Source: Methanosarcina sp. KYL-1 (GTDB taxonomy: Archaea > Halobacteriota > Methanosarcinia > Methanosarcinales > Methanosarcinaceae). Taken from it: DNA of 64,000 nt. The notes under the pieces are model-generated. The model searched no databases, was not told the origin of the DNA, and saw only the letters and a program-made list of their open reading frames with translations. The DNA lies in assembly GCF_024372725.1 (NCBI RefSeq), contig NZ_VOUA01000010.1, forward strand, positions 1-64,000, given 5' to 3'. Shown here piece after piece: positions 7,326-14,232 of the stretch. Each line of letters begins with the position of its first letter. Position 1 is the stretch's first letter. A program made the position numbers and the translations under genes.

Positions 7326-8615
7326 TTACTCGTACCTCAAAGCGTCCACAGGCTTCAGTTCCGACGCATTCTTTGCTGGCACAAGGCCCGCGATCAGCCC
7401 CACGATTATGGACACGAGGGTTGCTACAAGGGTCCCTTTTATGCTGAGGGTGAACTCAAAGGGGGTTTGCATTTTCATCGAGACCAGGAACAGGATTAAC
7501 TGCACGGCTGCAGTTCCCAGGAGAATGCCTATGATTCCCCCTACAAGTCCGATCATGGCAGCATTGCAGAGGAAAATCAGGAGGATGTCCCTGTTTTTCG
7601 CACCGATGGCTTTCATGATCCCTATCTCTTTTGTCTTTTCCAGGACTGAAGTGAACATGGTGTTTGCAATGCCTGTTGAACCCACAAGGAGAGAAATCCC
7701 TGCAATGAAGGCCAGGAAGGCTGTGAGCCCGTCGATCAGTTTCCCGGTGCTTTCTATTGCCTCTTTTGGGGAGCTCACGTAGAAGTCCTGGGTCTTTTCG
7801 TCCACCCTCCTGGAAAGCCTCAGCCTGCGCTCGATTTCTTCAAGGGCGGCTTCGTGGTCGGCCCAACTGTGCAATTTTACCTCGATGGAGTCGTAGACAT
7901 CCTTCTCCATTTCGAACAGGCTTTCCTCCCCCTGCTTAAAAGAGTAGACCTCTTCGTAAGGCATATATACGCTGCTTCCGAATAAGCCGCCCAGGCCCCC
8001 TAGCAGGCCGTCGTCTTTTGCCAGGATCCCGACTACACGGTAGGATTTTCCGTTCAAGAGGACCATCTGGTTAAGCCGGATTTTCCGTTCGAAGGCCTCA
8101 TTTGCAAGTTCGTCGGAAATAACCACAACAGCCCTGTCCCCGGGCTCAAGCATCCTTCCTTCGCCAATTTTCTTCTTCGTGATATCAGGCCAGACCCTCG
8201 GGTCCACACCCTTAACCCAGATCGAGGTCTGCTCTCCTCCATATTTCATATCAACCCCGGTTTCGACATTTACATTGACGTATTCAACTGCGGGGATGCG
8301 CTGGATGGCCAGCACGTCTGTCTTCGTAAGCTCCGGGTTTTGTATCTCTACAGGTTCTTCCGATACGACAGGTTCACCTGACTCATCGAAATCCATCTCT
8401 ACAGAATCAAAAGGATAGGAAGCAACGATCGTAATCGTATCGCCTCCCAGGCTCTCCAGGGTTTCAGTAACCTGTTCCTGGAAATACTCCCCTGTCGTGA
8501 CAATGGCCATTACCGAGGCAATGCCTATTATCACTCCTATGATGGTCAGCCAGCTCCGCAGCTTATTGGCTTTCACCATGTTCAGGGCTATTTTCAAAAT
8601 CTTTGCAGGTTTCAT
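7326..8615 (-). CDS. MacB/LolCE-type ABC transporter permease
   Basis: A 429-aa permease of the FtsX/MacB type. Residues 1-45 hold the first transmembrane helix (SWLTIIGVIIGIASVMAIV). A large extracytoplasmic MacB_PCD domain spans about 50-290, and three further helices (AFLAFIAGISLLVGSTGIANTMF, ILLIFLCNAAMIGLVGGIIGILLG, VATLVSIIVGLIAGLVPA) close the protein. The loop EKTKEIGIMKAIGA is the family signature. It is the last gene of a three-gene minus-strand operon: ATPase (10165-10878), COG1361 surface protein (8701-10158), permease. Systems of this kind export or extract substrates using energy from the cytoplasmic ATPase; the substrate is not known. The 85-bp gap to the preceding gene contains no obvious terminator. 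Confidence 0.9.
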   Translation of the reverse strand: MKPAKILKIALNMVKANKLRSWLTIIGVIIGIASVMAIVTTGEYFQEQVTETLESLGGDTITIVASYPFDSVEMDFDESGEPVVSEEPVEIQNPELTKTDVLAIQRIPAVEYVNVNVETGVDMKYGGEQTSIWVKGVDPRVWPDITKKKIGEGRMLEPGDRAVVVISDELANEAFERKIRLNQMVLLNGKSYRVVGILAKDDGLLGGLGGLFGSSVYMPYEEVYSFKQGEESLFEMEKDVYDSIEVKLHSWADHEAALEEIERRLRLSRRVDEKTQDFYVSSPKEAIESTGKLIDGLTAFLAFIAGISLLVGSTGIANTMFTSVLEKTKEIGIMKAIGAKNRDILLIFLCNAAMIGLVGGIIGILLGTAAVQLILFLVSMKMQTPFEFTLSIKGTLVATLVSIIVGLIAGLVPAKNASELKPVDALRYE

Positions 8616-8700: not shown

Positions 8701-10158
8701 TTACTCTTCCGTCTGCCTTTCGTTCATTTCCTCTTCGCCCATCTCACCTTCATCCATTTCCCTTCTCCCTGTCTTCTTTTTCTGCTGCCTTTTGTAAATC
8801 AGGACAGCTGCGGCTCCTGCAAGGACCAGCAACAACAGTTTGTATGAAAGGAAGCCGGAACCGTTATTTTCCCCAGGCTGTTTTGATTCTGTGGGGATGG
8901 TGAAAGGTGAAGCATAAAGGTTCAGCTCCTTTTCCTCGACCTGCCTCATGCCGTCACTGGAAGTGTAGCTGATTTCAAATTTAATGGGCAGGTCTTCCCC
9001 GATTTCTGCGGACATGAGGTTGAAGTCGGCAACCGTGTAGTCTCCTTTTTGCAGGTTTCCGAGTATTACGGAATTGGACCCGTCAGTGACGCTCCAGTTA
9101 GCCTGCGCAGGTACGGAAATCTTGACCGAGTTTGCACCGTTGTTTCCTATGTTCGAAACCGAAAAGGTGTAGGCTCCCGTCGGGCTCCTCTCCATAAAGG
9201 CGATGTCAAAGTCCGTTGTGCCTCCGATATAGATCCCGGCTTTGCTTTTGATCTCCTTTCGCTTCTGGTTTTCCACGGTGCCTGCTTCGGTAATGGTCTG
9301 GAGTTCTTCGATGTCGTCGTAGGTCAGGACCATGTCCAGTTTATACAGCCCGGGCTTTGTATTGACGTTGGTCAGGACATCAAAACTGACGTTTGCGGTC
9401 TCCCCCATATCGATCAGGTTGATGTGCTTGACGTTGCTTGAGCCGACAGGCAGGATCAGGTCGTTTGTGCATTCCCAGGAAAACATTGCATTTTTCAGGG
9501 GGGAATTGCCCACGTTCTTGATCCCGAAAGTGAGGTCCGTCTTTTTCCCCGGCACCAGTTTCTCAACGCTTATGAACTCGATTTCCGCGTTTGACTCGCT
9601 GTCAACGTCGATTATAAGGTCTTTTGTAAGGGGATTATTTTTTGCGCTGCCCTTGCTGTAGAGGTATACTTTAAGGGGGTATTTTCCTTCATTTACGTCG
9701 TTTTCGACCCCTAACTTGAATTTCACGACTTTTCCACGTTCGTCCTCATAGCGTTTTCCCAGAGTCCCTATGTTTTTTGAAAGTTCTTCTCCAGGGAGAG
9801 CCCTGAAAGGATAAACTGGCTCTATTTTCACTACGCAGTTTTCCTGTTCCTCATACCCGGTATTCTGGATCGAGAGCCTGATTTCAAGAACTTCCCCGGG
9901 TTTTACCGGGTCAGGGTCCTGGTTGAGCAGGTCGATTGTCAGTCCATTGTCCAGAGTTTCAGGAAGAGCAGCAAGGCCCGGAGAACTGAATAGGGAGAGG
10001 CCTATTAACAGTACAAGAAAAAGCCCGAATATTTGCTTCCCGGGAAGCTGCCTGCCAAAAAAGGGGCCATGTACCTGCTTTCCGGAAGCCTGTCTGTTAA
10101 AAATCCTAAAAGTGTTAAAAGTCTGTTCGCCAGGTATTTTTTTAAGAGTCATTTTCAT
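8701..10158 (-). CDS. COG1361 S-layer-like exported protein
   Basis: A 485-aa envelope protein. After a basic N-terminus there is a signal-anchor-like helix (IFGLFLVLLIGLSLFSSPGLAAL). Repeated beta-sandwich domains of the CARDB/NEW3 type follow (IQNTGYEEQENCVV, IKNVGNSPLKNA, VSNIGNNGANSV). A C-terminal transmembrane helix (LSYKLLLLVLAGAAAVLIY) precedes a charged cytoplasmic tail rich in Glu, Lys and Arg. It therefore lies mostly outside the cell and is anchored at the C-terminus. Its position between an ABC ATPase and a MacB-like permease suggests it serves as the extracellular partner of that transporter, similar in role to a membrane fusion protein. That role is an inference from context. 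The start at 10158 lies 6 bp after the ATPase stop. Confidence 0.85.
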   Translation of the reverse strand: MKMTLKKIPGEQTFNTFRIFNRQASGKQVHGPFFGRQLPGKQIFGLFLVLLIGLSLFSSPGLAALPETLDNGLTIDLLNQDPDPVKPGEVLEIRLSIQNTGYEEQENCVVKIEPVYPFRALPGEELSKNIGTLGKRYEDERGKVVKFKLGVENDVNEGKYPLKVYLYSKGSAKNNPLTKDLIIDVDSESNAEIEFISVEKLVPGKKTDLTFGIKNVGNSPLKNAMFSWECTNDLILPVGSSNVKHINLIDMGETANVSFDVLTNVNTKPGLYKLDMVLTYDDIEELQTITEAGTVENQKRKEIKSKAGIYIGGTTDFDIAFMERSPTGAYTFSVSNIGNNGANSVKISVPAQANWSVTDGSNSVILGNLQKGDYTVADFNLMSAEIGEDLPIKFEISYTSSDGMRQVEEKELNLYASPFTIPTESKQPGENNGSGFLSYKLLLLVLAGAAAVLIYKRQQKKKTGRREMDEGEMGEEEMNERQTEE

Positions 10159-10164
10159 CTTTCC

Positions 10165-10878
10165 TTAAATTTCCGGCTTGAGCTGGTTGAGATTCGGCTC
10201 GTCCCGGATTATTTCCCCGTCCTTCAGCTCGATGTGCCTGCTGGCATACTGTGCGAGGTGAGTGTCGTGGGTGACAATGATTACTGTTTTTCCTTTTTCC
10301 TTCCACAGCCTGTAGAGAGTTCCCATTACTTCTTTTCCCGTAACGCTGTCCAGGGCTCCGGTGGGCTCGTCGGCAAGGATGATTTCAGGGTTGCAAGCAA
10401 GGGCCCGGGCAATCGAGACCCTCTGCTGCTGCCCTCCCGAAAGCTGGGAAGGCCTGTGCTGTATCTTGTCGGAAAGGCCTACAAGGCCCAGGAGCGCCTT
10501 TGCCCTCTTTTCGGCAGCTGCATCGTCAACTTCCTGAATTTCCAGGGGCAAAAGCACGTTTTCAAGTGCAGTCATCCCCGGGATCAGGTTATACTGCTGG
10601 AAAACAAAGCCTATGGTTTTTCCCCTCAGGGCCGCGAGGTCCGATTCCTCCAGGCGGGCTATGTTTCTGGACTTCAGGAAGATTTCTCCCTTCGACGGGA
10701 CATCCAGGCAGCCCACGAGGTTCATCATAGTGGACTTGCCGCTCCCGGAAGGACCGATAATTGCGGCAAATTCTCCTTTCCCGAACTCCACGCTCACGCC
10801 CTTCAGGGCATTTACATCGACTTCTCCCATCTGGTAAATCTTCCAGACGTTTCTGAAGGTGATCAGCGTATTTTCCAT
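10165..10878 (-). CDS. MacB/LolD-type ABC transporter ATPase
   Basis: A 237-aa nucleotide-binding subunit with Walker [11 protein letters not shown]-loop FQQYNL, signature LSGGQQQRV and Walker B IILADEP. The closest type is LolD/MacB, which matches the permease two genes downstream. I use the ATG at 10878 rather than the GTG at 10884. Upstream, the minus strand shows a TATA-like TATTTTTATG about 25-30 bp before this ATG, so the mRNA may be nearly leaderless. The 53-bp conserved box (10897-10949) covers this promoter. Confidence 0.92.
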
Positions 10879-10896
10879 ATACACACCCTTAAGTCC

Positions 10897-10949
10897 TACT
10901 TACATAAAAATAGTCTGTAGTTGAAAAATCTAGTTTGCCTCTATTTTTC
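10897..10949 (-). promoter_or_regulatory. 53-bp conserved promoter box, site 1
   Basis: This box matches 12232-12284 at about 48 of 53 positions without gaps, and 13002-13054 more loosely. On the minus strand it holds a direct repeat AACTA-N8-AACTA followed by a TATA-like element pointing to the ABC operon. Confidence 0.7.
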
Positions 10950-10980
10950 ATAAACATTGCAATTCCGGAAATCAACCCGT

Positions 10981-11265
10981 TTAATTTTGAAAGTTTGCTT
11001 CAGCCTGTTTTCTTCCGAACAGATAATATGTAAAGACTCCCAGAAGCCCGAAAACAAGTGCAGCGGATATCCAGAAGAGCTTCTTCCAGGGGCCTGGTTC
11101 CTTGTTATATTTTGAAAGGTCATGGATTATACATAGAAGACAGAAAAGGACGATTACCCCGGAAATGGCTTCGAAGGGGCTGCCCAATGCAGCGAGGTTG
11201 CGGGTTCCCAGGCTGAAGGCGCCAAGCGTGCCCAGCATCTTGAAAATGATATTTGGTGCAGACAT
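10981..11265 (-). CDS. Small membrane protein with PLDc_N-like C-terminus
   Basis: A 94-aa protein with a perfect GGAGGT 6 nt before the ATG. Two hydrophobic helices are visible (AISGVIVLFCLLCIIHDLS and LFWISAALVFGLLGVFTYYLFG). The second ends in FGRKQAEAN, the W/GxxxYxxFGR pattern of PLDc_N-type small membrane domains. The 65-aa protein at 12666-12863 ends in FGRRQNKAN and is a shorter relative. It lies between two units that carry the 53-bp box but has no box itself. Function unknown; it may accompany the neighbouring envelope genes. Confidence 0.8.
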   Translation of the reverse strand: MSAPNIIFKMLGTLGAFSLGTRNLAALGSPFEAISGVIVLFCLLCIIHDLSKYNKEPGPWKKLFWISAALVFGLLGVFTYYLFGRKQAEANFQN

Positions 11266-11532
11266 GTAGATACCTCCGTCATTTGCAGAAACGTTCCTTT
11301 TCCGAAAAAATCAGGCCATCTTGATCGTAAGCAAATAATGTTCCTTTAAGCGGTACAAATTGAGTTCTCTTAACCGGTGCAAATATTCGGTAAAACATCG
11401 AGAGAGGATTTTCTTTCCGGAAACTTCTTGAGTGCGCTGTAAACCCGGAATAAAAAAAGATTCCGGCCAAAAAATTTTGGCACGAAATCATTGAACTTCA
11501 CGGCGAATGGTTTTTTTCAGGGATCTGCCTTT

Positions 11533-12126
11533 TTACAGAACCTGATCCGTTTTACAGAACCCGGCCGTATTCTTTTCTACTACCCGGCCGTAGAAATTTG
11601 CGGCAAAGATCGTGCCTGCGAAATATATGGCGGGTATGCCTACGAGGACGATGGAGAGTATCAAGAATATAAAGATTAGCACATACTGCTTTATCATTAC
11701 AAACAGGTAGTCTCCTAAATTGTTCATGACGTATTTGAGTTTGGAAAACTCAAATAATGACTCTACGGTCTGTTTCCTGTAGAAGTTGACTGTAAGAACC
11801 GGAAGCACAAAGAACGATAATACGAAACTCAGAATGTTGGCTGCAGTCTCATCATAGAAAGTGGCCAGGACTACCGGAATACAGTACACTATAGAGAAGG
11901 GTATTGATTTCAGGAGCATCCAGAACCCGAGTTTAAGGTCTTCCATGAAATGAAGCTGGGGAAGCCCTTCGTATTTTCCCTCTACAAACTCGTTATTTAT
12001 TCTTATAATATATCCGAATAGGGCAAACCATCCGAACACCGGAAAAAGCATCCAGAGGACATATAAAAGCCTTTTAGGTCTCCTGAACGGATATTTGAAA
12101 GCATCTGTGAAACTAATTTCTCGCAT
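11533..12126 (-). CDS. DUF4013-type integral membrane protein
   Basis: A 197-aa protein with four to five hydrophobic helices (VLWMLFPVFGWFALFGYII, MLLKSIPFSIVYCIPVVLA, ILSFVLSFFVLPVLTVNFY, FVMIKQYVLIFIFLILSIVLVGIPAIYF). The N-terminus (FTDAFKYPFRRPKRLLYV) and the small-residue-rich last helix fit DUF4013. GGTGG stands 6 nt before the ATG. The promoter is probably the 53-bp box at 12232-12284, giving a roughly 80-nt leader with the hairpin at 12183-12202. No enzymatic motif is seen. Confidence 0.8.
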   Translation of the reverse strand: MREISFTDAFKYPFRRPKRLLYVLWMLFPVFGWFALFGYIIRINNEFVEGKYEGLPQLHFMEDLKLGFWMLLKSIPFSIVYCIPVVLATFYDETAANILSFVLSFFVLPVLTVNFYRKQTVESLFEFSKLKYVMNNLGDYLFVMIKQYVLIFIFLILSIVLVGIPAIYFAGTIFAANFYGRVVEKNTAGFCKTDQVL

Positions 12127-12182
12127 ATAGCCACCTGAAAATTTACTTTATTACGCTCATTAATTATTTTGTTATGTCTGGT

Positions 12183-12202
12183 GGGACTTTTCCAAAAGTC
12201 CC
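12183..12202 (-). promoter_or_regulatory. Perfect hairpin in the leader of the DUF4013 gene
   Basis: GGGACTTTT-CC-AAAAGTCCC, a perfect 9-bp stem with a 2-nt loop. It sits between the 53-bp promoter box and the DUF4013 start, so it would be transcribed in the 5' leader. Whether it acts as an attenuator or only as structure is not known. Confidence 0.5.
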
Positions 12203-12231
12203 GCGGATTTTCTACATGCCCCTGAAATCTC

Positions 12232-12284
12232 TACTTATATAAAAAAAGACTGTAGTTGAAAAATATAGTTTACCTCTATTTTTC
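12232..12284 (-). promoter_or_regulatory. 53-bp conserved promoter box, site 2
   Basis: It holds the AACTA direct repeats and a TTTATATAAG TATA element on the minus strand. It is nearly identical to site 1 and points to the DUF4013 gene. Confidence 0.7.
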
Positions 12285-12306
12285 ATATATTCTGAATTCT
12301 AGCTTT

Positions 12307-12390
12307 TTTATTTCTTTAAGGGAGGCGCCGCCAGGCAAGCTGGCGGGGGATCCTACAACACCTGGACTGATAAACGGTTTCCGGGGTCAG
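12307..12390. repeat. GC-rich dispersed repeat, family 2, copy 2
   Basis: TTTCTTT, then GGAGGCGCCGCCAGGCAAGC, TGGCGGGG, CCTGGACTGA and GGTTTCCGGGGTCA. It has the same order of blocks as the copies at 44896 and 53643. The short plus-strand frame that follows (12512-12775) lacks a ribosome binding site and is not called. Confidence 0.8.
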
Positions 12391-12665
12391 GGGAAGTGTT
12401 ACCAGGGTCAATCATTGGGGGTTACCCGAATAGCAAGATGGCTGGAAAAATACATTGGAATCCGGGAAAATACATTGGAATGAATAAATAGGGCATTCCG
12501 GTGACTGAAATATGTGTTGGGACACCAAAAAGGAGATCCTAATTATTGAAAAGAAGGCGGTCAGAAAAAAATATGAGGACTCAATCAGAAAGGCAGCCGC
12601 AGACTGCAAAAAAGAATTAGGCCTGAAAAATGCTCAGCACACTTCAAAAATTACTTTTCCGGACT

Positions 12666-12863
12666 TTAATAATTTGCTTTATTTTGCCTTCTCCCGAAAA
12701 AATAGAAGGCGATCGCATACAGGACTCCTGAAATTATCGCAGCTATTATCCAGATGGTCATCAGCATATTGCTGAGGCTTTTTTTCTGCGTCAGGATGTT
12801 ATAGGTCACCCATAGAAGGGATATAAAACTGAAGATTCCTAAACTGATAATTAATAAAGACAA
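12666..12863 (-). CDS. Small two-helix membrane protein (PLDc_N-like)
   Basis: A 65-aa protein starting at TTG 12863, with GGAGGT 5 nt upstream. It has helix 1 LLIISLGIFSFISLLWV and helix 2 MTIWIIAAIISGVLYAIAFYFFG, then GRRQNKAN. It shares its length class, topology and C-terminal motif with the second half of the 10981-11265 protein. The 53-bp box at 13002-13054 points toward it on the minus strand, about 140 bp upstream. Function unknown. Confidence 0.7.
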   Translation of the reverse strand: MSLLIISLGIFSFISLLWVTYNILTQKKSLSNMLMTIWIIAAIISGVLYAIAFYFFGRRQNKANY

Positions 12864-13001
12864 ATTATACCTCCGCTATTACAAGGAATACTCATGAAAT
12901 TTAATAAATTTTTATCCTGATGTCCCCCTAACCGTTCCGTAATTCCTGCTGAACCGGACTTCTCTTCCCCGGGAAACTTTCAAGGCATTCTTTAAAGGGG
13001 G

Positions 13002-13054
13002 TACTTATATAAAAACATAAGGTAGTACTAAAATCTAGTTTACCTCCACTTTTT
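13002..13054 (-). promoter_or_regulatory. 53-bp conserved promoter box, site 3
   Basis: It keeps the TACTTATATAAAAA and TCTAGTTTACCTC blocks of sites 1 and 2 at the same spacing, with changes in the middle. It lies in the divergent gap between the 65-aa membrane gene and the membrane protein-winged helix pair, so it may serve both. A separate plus-strand TATATATAT lies at about 13061-13071. Confidence 0.65.
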
Positions 13055-13081
13055 CCAAAAAATATATATATTTCCGGCTTA

Positions 13082-13873
13082 ATGGACGTACCCATGACCC
13101 TCGGGGCGTTTAATGCAACCTTTAGCGAAGAATTCATTAATCTCGCCTCGGAAGCTGCAGCATCGACCAGCATACCCGAGCTTGCATTCAGCCTTTTCGT
13201 ATATTCCTTGATGGCGGTCCTCGCCCTGCAGATCTACCGGGAGGTCTCGAAAATCTACTCATTTATGGAGTACGAAGGGCTTAAATATTTCAAAAACGCC
13301 TTCCTTTTCTACGGGTTTGCAAATGTTTTCCTGGCTTCAATGACTCTTTCTCTCCTGCTGGCAAAATCTTCAGTCCCTGCAGGCCTGTATCTCATGGCTG
13401 TGGTCCTTTTGCCTTTCTTCTTCTTCACCGGGTTAAGTCTCTGGTTTGCCAAAGCAAACCTGCTTTCTTCCATAGTGTGGAAACTGGTTGAGGGGACTGT
13501 CAGGAAAAAGACCCTCAAAGCCCTGTTTTTCATCTCCGTAATGCTGCTCGTACTGATGGACGTGGTCGTCTATCTCCTGGTCTCGGTATTTGCCGGAGAT
13601 TATATTGCCCTGGGGTATAAGGCTGTGGTTTTTGTCCTTATCCTGCTCCTTATCAGGTCAAACATGCGCTCGGGAGGAGAAACAAAGCCTATAACCCACC
13701 CCTACTACCTGGGCCTGATCCTGATCTTTACCCTGGGTTTCCTGGGAAATTTTTCAATCATAATTGAGAAAGGGTCGGAATTAATAGGGTATGCCTTTGA
13801 CTTCCTGACTCTTCTTGCCTACGTAATAATCCTTAAAGGAATAAGAAAATGGAGCCGCATTCTACTGAAATGA
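13082..13873 (+). CDS. Multi-helix membrane protein paired with winged-helix regulator
   Basis: A 263-aa protein with about seven transmembrane helices, including LAFSLFVYSLMAVLALQIY, AFLFYGFANVFLASMTLSLLLA, LMAVVLLPFFFFTGLSLWF, LFFISVMLLVLMDVVVYLLVSVF, AVVFVLILLLI and LGLILIFTLGFLGNFSI. No catalytic domain is seen. Its last codons overlap the downstream wHTH gene, so the two are co-translated. A membrane protein coupled to a COG3432-like regulator is a plausible membrane sensor pair. The start may be the ATG at 13082 or the one at 13094. Confidence 0.8.
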   Translation: MDVPMTLGAFNATFSEEFINLASEAAASTSIPELAFSLFVYSLMAVLALQIYREVSKIYSFMEYEGLKYFKNAFLFYGFANVFLASMTLSLLLAKSSVPAGLYLMAVVLLPFFFFTGLSLWFAKANLLSSIVWKLVEGTVRKKTLKALFFISVMLLVLMDVVVYLLVSVFAGDYIALGYKAVVFVLILLLIRSNMRSGGETKPITHPYYLGLILIFTLGFLGNFSIIIEKGSELIGYAFDFLTLLAYVIILKGIRKWSRILLK

Positions 13874-14151
13874 AGCCGTTTCAAAAGCGAAGCCGGCTGG
13901 AAATTATAAGGGATATCCTCACGGTTATCCGCGACTCCAACAGCACTATCAGTCCAACAAAACTTCTGAGGTTCTCCAACCTCTCCTACCAGATGTTTGA
14001 AGAATACCTGGGAGAACTGGAAGCCAAAGAACTGGTCGAATTAAATGACTATAAAGGGAAAAGAAAAGTATACTCATTGACCCCTAAAGGAAGGGCGTTT
14101 CTGGAAAAATATGAGGACTTTGTGTCCTTTTTAAGGGATTTTGGGCTTTAA
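13849..14151 (+). CDS. COG3432-like winged-helix transcriptional regulator
   Basis: A 100-aa single-domain protein: helices RLEIIRDILTVIRDS, TKLLRFSNLSYQMFEEYLGELEAKELVEL, then the wing KGKRKVYSLTPKGRAFLEKYEDF. This is the usual archaeal winged helix of the COG3432 kind. AAAGGA precedes the ATG at 13849, which lies inside the end of the membrane protein gene; an in-frame ATG at 13870 overlaps that gene's stop as ATGA and is an alternative start. It is the best local candidate for the protein that binds the 53-bp boxes, on proximity alone. Confidence 0.88.
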   Translation: MEPHSTEMKPFQKRSRLEIIRDILTVIRDSNSTISPTKLLRFSNLSYQMFEEYLGELEAKELVELNDYKGKRKVYSLTPKGRAFLEKYEDFVSFLRDFGL

Positions 14152-14232
14152 TGTTGCCACGGCAAACTTTTATCAATCAAACTTTTCTTCGAACAAGTCT
14201 TTCAATCAAACTTTCTTCAATCAAACCTGCAT

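Follow-up and report, generated by a model that had tools for sequence, protein, structure and literature searches.

The stretch of DNA analysed here (the window) comprises the initial 64 kb of a contig of 97 kb in the 4.04-Mb genome of Methanosarcina sp. KYL-1 (G000 in our numbering). An operon on its minus strand encodes an ABC ATPase of the MacB/LolD type (10165-10884), a COG1361-type secreted protein with CARDB and NEW3 domains (8701-10158) and a MacB/FtsX-type permease (7326-8615). The same strand carries the genes for a 94-aa small membrane protein (PLDc_N, PF13396; 10981-11265), a DUF4013 (PF13197) membrane protein (11533-12126) and a 65-aa small membrane protein (12666-12863). The 94-aa protein is probably encoded downstream within the DUF4013 transcript. 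The 65-aa protein, which starts with TTG after GGAGGT, resembles the 94-aa protein and is conserved in related loci. On the plus strand, a predicted 7-TM membrane protein, MP263 (13082-13873, with a likely start at 13094, the invariant Met5), is followed by a winged-helix (wHTH) regulator of 100 aa that belongs to the HTH_45 (PF14947)/Sso10a-like proteins (13849-14151). The two genes overlap by 25 nt. Just 3' of the wHTH gene, at 14163-14226, units of about 15 bp (CAAACTTTTTTCAAT) form 4.3 tandem copies.

Three boxes precede these genes. A sequence-only reading had described them as near-identical sites that align without gaps, and a repeat search of the window confirms a single ungapped family, which spans 57 nt. 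Box 2 is 91% and box 3 is 72% identical to box 1 (52/57 and 41/57 matches), compared with a best chance match of 30-35/57 when site 1 was used as the query against 20 copies of the window randomised by a first-order Markov model. Conservation stops sharply at the box edges. The flanks on either side are 20-38% identical, the level of unrelated DNA, save where a coding start is included. A TATA element (ATATAAA or ACATAAA) is identically placed in all three boxes and faces the minus-strand genes, as had been proposed. Box 1 (10896-10952, minus strand), with an operator core at 10917-10942 and TATA at about 10901-10908, serves the ABC/COG1361/permease operon. Box 2 (12231-12287, minus strand; core 12252-12277, TATA about 12236-12243) serves the DUF4013 gene, with a leader of about 85 nt. 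Box 3 (13001-13057) has its core (13022-13047) between two divergent promoters. The TATA on its left (about 13006-13013) points towards the gene of the small 65-aa membrane protein. The box also lies 25-40 bp upstream of the plus-strand MP263 gene, and a second TATA on that strand (13060-13073), recognised from its sequence and conserved in relatives, faces the MP263-wHTH pair. The earlier observation that the third site also lies upstream of this pair holds.

Two other features adjoin the boxes. Between the TATA of box 1 and the start of the ABC gene (10866-10900) there is a Shine-Dalgarno-like sequence, AAGGTG/TTAGGTGA, which is likewise seen at the ABC promoters of L143, L145 and L137. The ABC promoter TATA predicts a nearly leaderless mRNA despite this sequence. 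A GC-rich repeat, GGGAGGCGCCGCCAGGCAAGCTGGCGGGGGATCC, adjoins box 2 at 12290-12340 and recurs at more than 20 other places in the genome and at some in congeners; it is REP-like, dispersed and not related to the boxes.

The architecture of the element emerges from 23 sites of several genera, which align over 57 columns with zero gaps. The fixed columns are the TATA (6-13), the operator (22-47, GTAGTTGAAAAATATAGTTTACCTCC) and an A/T tract that extends up to column 53. The spacing from TATA to operator is rigid in all 23 sites, with the operator edge 7-8 bp from the TATA region. The ABC and DUF4013 sites, which are one-sided, keep the A/T tract as well, so that it probably belongs to the operator rather than being a second BRE. 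Divergent sites have the operator flanked by two TATA elements that are about 50-55 bp from each other. Some genomes of genus g3 have a core that forms a perfect dyad, GTAGTTGAA-AAATATAG-TTCAACTAC (half-sites GTAGTTGAA-N8-TTCAACTAC), situated between the divergent TATA boxes of MP263 and the ABC operon; an additional 13-bp unit is present in others of this genus. In G085 both half-sites are altered in a roughly parallel, symmetric way (GTAGTTTAA...TTTAACTAC). The perfect inverted repeat of g3 and the roughly symmetric change in G085 argue for binding by a dimer. The genus of the window has a 26-bp form of the element, GTAGTTGAAAAATATAGTTTACCTC, in which the right half differs, and the dyad there is weak, most sites having 4-6 of the 9 pairs. 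The AACTA-N8-AACTA direct repeat noted at the outset is present, but it is only part of an element that in relatives is an inverted repeat with an additional TAGTT inside it.

A profile built from the sequences of the box sites alone was searched across 112 Methanosarcinaceae genomes. Relatives include Methanosarcina sp. 2.H.T.1A.6, an isolate with the box, and UBA10923, besides other Methanosarcinaceae. The KYL-1 genome contains exactly four strong profile sites, all in front of genes. The fourth, G000:C6:155692-155739 (E 8e-11), is unlinked to the others and lies upstream of a DUF1835/DUF3658 gene, so that the genome-wide search for further members of the proposed regulon did add one. A search with the plain pattern AACTANNTTTTNNAACTA, allowing 2 mismatches, gave no useful signal: it matched 79 times and its reversed control 100 times. 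Arrays of 13-bp tandem AACTA units at G000:C2:221841 look similar and are absent among the strong sites of the profile. Beside box 4, a remnant (L029 1503-2072, on G000:C6) resembles part of a MATE efflux gene. At the equivalent place in G080 a MATE efflux gene follows a MarR gene; KYL-1 has no MarR gene there and lacks much of the MATE gene.

Across genomes, the box is invariably upstream of the MP263-wHTH pair, and in the wHTH-bearing genomes examined it precedes the ABC/COG1361/permease operon, with a weakened ABC box in G011 although wHTH is present there. Unlinked targets are found in G001, G015 and G080. In G015 and G001 the ABC operon lies apart from wHTH (on another contig or 17 kb off), and the box still precedes it. 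The box at the DUF1835/DUF3658 gene is common to KYL-1 and G080, and an RDD-family gene is preceded by a box in G105 and also in G001, there at an unlinked position. Ungapped conservation across genera, the small number of sites per genome and the unlinked targets strongly support a regulon under one shared operator. The description of this regulon as an envelope regulon fits most of its targets; nothing suggests that the DUF1835/DUF3658 protein is a membrane protein.

Presence of the box follows presence of the wHTH gene. With orthologs defined by at least 61% identity over nearly the full length and boxes by E 1e-3 or better, the box occurs in 19 of the 112 genomes: all 17 that have a wHTH ortholog and 2 of the 95 without one. 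The Fisher p value for this co-occurrence is 3e-18, in a calculation that treats the genomes as independent of ancestry. Congeners that lack wHTH and retain the ABC operon are among the box-less genomes, and no box was found at 21 sampled ABC/COG1361 loci of wHTH-less genomes. When the ABC-COG1361-permease proteins are placed on a tree, operons without the box form a single clade of 20 plus G007. Both changes to the box-less state on this tree match the absence of wHTH, and none is opposite. Phylogenetically independent pairs comprise 2 concordant, 0 opposite and 2 uninformative cases, and the sign test (p 0.5) is not significant because the independent losses are too few.

The two genomes with a box and no wHTH, G078 and G035, show what is expected for recent decay. 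In G078 the MP263-wHTH pair is gone cleanly from the box-bearing locus. In G035 (L082 10150-10460), an array of GTGAAGAAAGG-type units that includes an N run stands in place of the entire wHTH gene and the last part of MP263; this is either a true minisatellite expansion or an assembly fault. The COG1361 genes G078:C25:238577-239962 and G007:C101:3727-5154 each contain one in-frame TGA, which suggests that the ABC/COG1361 operon is decaying in both genomes. Boxes are found only in genomes that have wHTH or have just lost it, and are most likely the sites by which the MP263-wHTH pair turns on a small group of genes, most of them for the cell envelope. Paralogs of wHTH (42-55% identity) elsewhere in the family occur in genomes with no box. 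The recognition-helix region, NLS[YF]QMFEEY, is constant in the orthologs of box genomes and different in these paralogs. The original proposal that the winged-helix protein reads the boxes is strongly supported, as far as comparative sequence data go, by the 17/17 versus 2/95 co-occurrence and by the constant place of its gene beside a box.

The wHTH protein matches Pfam HTH_45 with 65.2 bits (gathering score 25.5) and NCBIfam Sso10a_fam with 59.4 bits, just under the cut-off of 60. Its best sequence match in the PDB is Sso10a (profile, E 2e-7). A monomer model (pLDDT 84) has the order H-H-H-E-E-H with a C-terminal helix of 19 residues; its top fold match is Sso10a-2, and MarR-type proteins are also matched. 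Sso10a1 is a dimer formed through a coiled coil, for which a 25-bp site has been modelled, and the Sso10a proteins of Sulfolobus act as, and are regarded as, chromatin proteins (PMC4941522).

MP263 matched no Pfam or NCBIfam family, and a Foldseek search with its model gave no match at E <= 0.001. The model (pLDDT 84) contains 7 long helices. Comparison with GPCRs gave VIA Z scores of up to 13.8, and unrelated helical bundles can attain scores of about this size. Because this resemblance to 7-TM receptors is weak and at the level of bundles, we do not claim receptor homology. Distant wHTH paralogs in other genomes also follow an overlapping membrane gene, whose product shares a Y-x-G-[LI]-[KQ]-Y-F loop with MP263, and hhalign relates MP263 to these membrane proteins with a probability of 96 over 51 columns. 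Among five paralogous pairs with overlapping genes (L198, L199, L200, L201 and L202), four lie beside ABC/COG1361 operons. Since distant paralogous pairs recur in the order, the two-gene membrane protein-wHTH module is probably older than the box regulon. G085 has wHTH and the box and lacks MP263. Considering the overlapping genes, the predicted 7-TM topology and the co-conservation in paralogous pairs, a sensor role for MP263 is plausible. Tentatively, and at somewhat less than even odds, the module may be a widespread, kinase-free signalling device of the Methanosarcinales in which a receptor-like 7-TM protein and a co-translated Sso10a-type wHTH report the state of the membrane or envelope to ABC/COG1361 export operons, with the paralogous pairs reading different operators.

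Our main reading, to which we assign a probability of roughly 0.7, is that the boxes are operators of wHTH, probably activator sites, in a small regulon with MP263 as its likely sensor. A wHTH dimer would bind the 26-bp core, which sits at a fixed 7-8 bp from the TATA region on its upstream side, and would most likely recruit or stabilise TBP/TFB, thus acting as an activator, as GvpE does from an element next to BRE (PMC4390858). We infer that wHTH controls its own operon, the exporter-like ABC/COG1361 operon, and the genes of the DUF4013 protein, the small membrane protein and the DUF1835/DUF3658 protein; in relatives it may also control the RDD membrane protein. MP263 would sense a signal from the envelope or membrane and tune wHTH by direct contact, by holding, releasing or modifying it. 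Weighing against this reading are the boxes kept without wHTH in G078 and G035, the small number of independent losses, the weak dyad of this genus, the absence of MP263 from G085, the weakened ABC box of G011 and the chromatin role of Sso10a proteins in Sulfolobus.

Three other explanations compete with this reading. The first concerns the nature of the boxes, which might have arisen by recent duplication or as a small mobile repeat that inserted into promoters. The 91% identity of boxes 1 and 2 in the window is what such an origin would produce, but the flanks are unrelated, spacing to TATA is fixed, and the boxes are conserved at orthologous promoters across genera. The sequence-only reading had named many copies at unrelated, non-promoter positions as the pattern of a dispersed repeat; with just four sites in the genome, each upstream of a gene, we reject a dispersed repeat in favour of a regulon. 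The boxes away from the wHTH locus likewise show that the element is neither a local duplication nor a dispersed repeat, and this origin has almost nothing left to recommend it. It is also improbable, to a lesser degree, that a different regulator reads the box and that the neighbouring wHTH is merely one of its targets. Boxes kept without wHTH in G078 and G035 would agree with such a regulator, whereas the box is absent from 93 of the 95 wHTH-less genomes, including congeners that keep the ABC operon. In the KYL-1 genome, a search for HTH_45 proteins, one family among the candidate regulators, turned up only one more.

The strongest competitor, although still unlikely, accepts wHTH as the regulator and reverses its effect: as a repressor bound beside TATA/BRE, it would block TFB/TBP until a signal passing through the 7-TM protein sets it free. 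Autoregulation is frequent among repressors, and the location of box 3 is autoregulatory. An operator edge just 7-8 bp from the TATA region, and TATA elements about 50-55 bp apart on either side of the operator at divergent sites, would make BRE occlusion possible. On the other hand, the operator overlaps neither TATA nor start site, and its rigid spacing to TATA is that of activators such as GvpE (PMC4390858). Loss of the box in wHTH-less genomes is neutral between the two modes. An operator upstream of TATA favours activation while leaving room for repression.

The regulon can be named from regulator via operator to targets. A protein of the Sso10a type, a kind known from Sulfolobus for its role in chromatin, gains a predicted specific operator, and the COG1361/ABC operons and the DUF4013, RDD and DUF1835/DUF3658 proteins gain a common regulatory context. 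Most of the genus lacks the regulon, which could therefore be rebuilt in a clean background.

A literature search found no earlier description of such a regulon in methanogens, and its components resemble several known systems in part. The target operon shares a MacB/LolD-type ATPase and a permease with ABC systems of the MacB/LolCDE type; it differs in its third gene, which encodes a COG1361-type secreted protein. Bacterial membrane-coupled regulators, such as a small wHTH with a membrane partner or anti-sigma-like pairs, have an integral partner encoded alongside and are autoregulated. The small DNA-binding protein, the integral membrane partner and the autoregulation are alike, whereas no homology was found for the 7-TM partner and the promoters here are of the archaeal TATA/BRE type. 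Sso10a and Sso10a-2 (PDB 1r7j, 4hw0) are the nearest solved structures to wHTH by sequence and fold, but the work on them describes general chromatin proteins, for which neither an operator nor a membrane partner is known. A parallel in promoter layout is the GvpE/GvpD system of haloarchaeal gas vesicles, in which the GvpE element adjoins BRE between divergent promoters and requires close distance (PMC4390858). The box, like the UAS of GvpE, is an element of two half-sites next to BRE/TATA between divergent promoters, and the box regulon would likewise be small and autoregulated, with a partner protein encoded beside its probable activator. GvpE is leucine-zipper-like rather than a wHTH, GvpD is an AAA+-like ATPase rather than a predicted 7-TM protein, and the targets and the element sequence are distinct from those of the box regulon.
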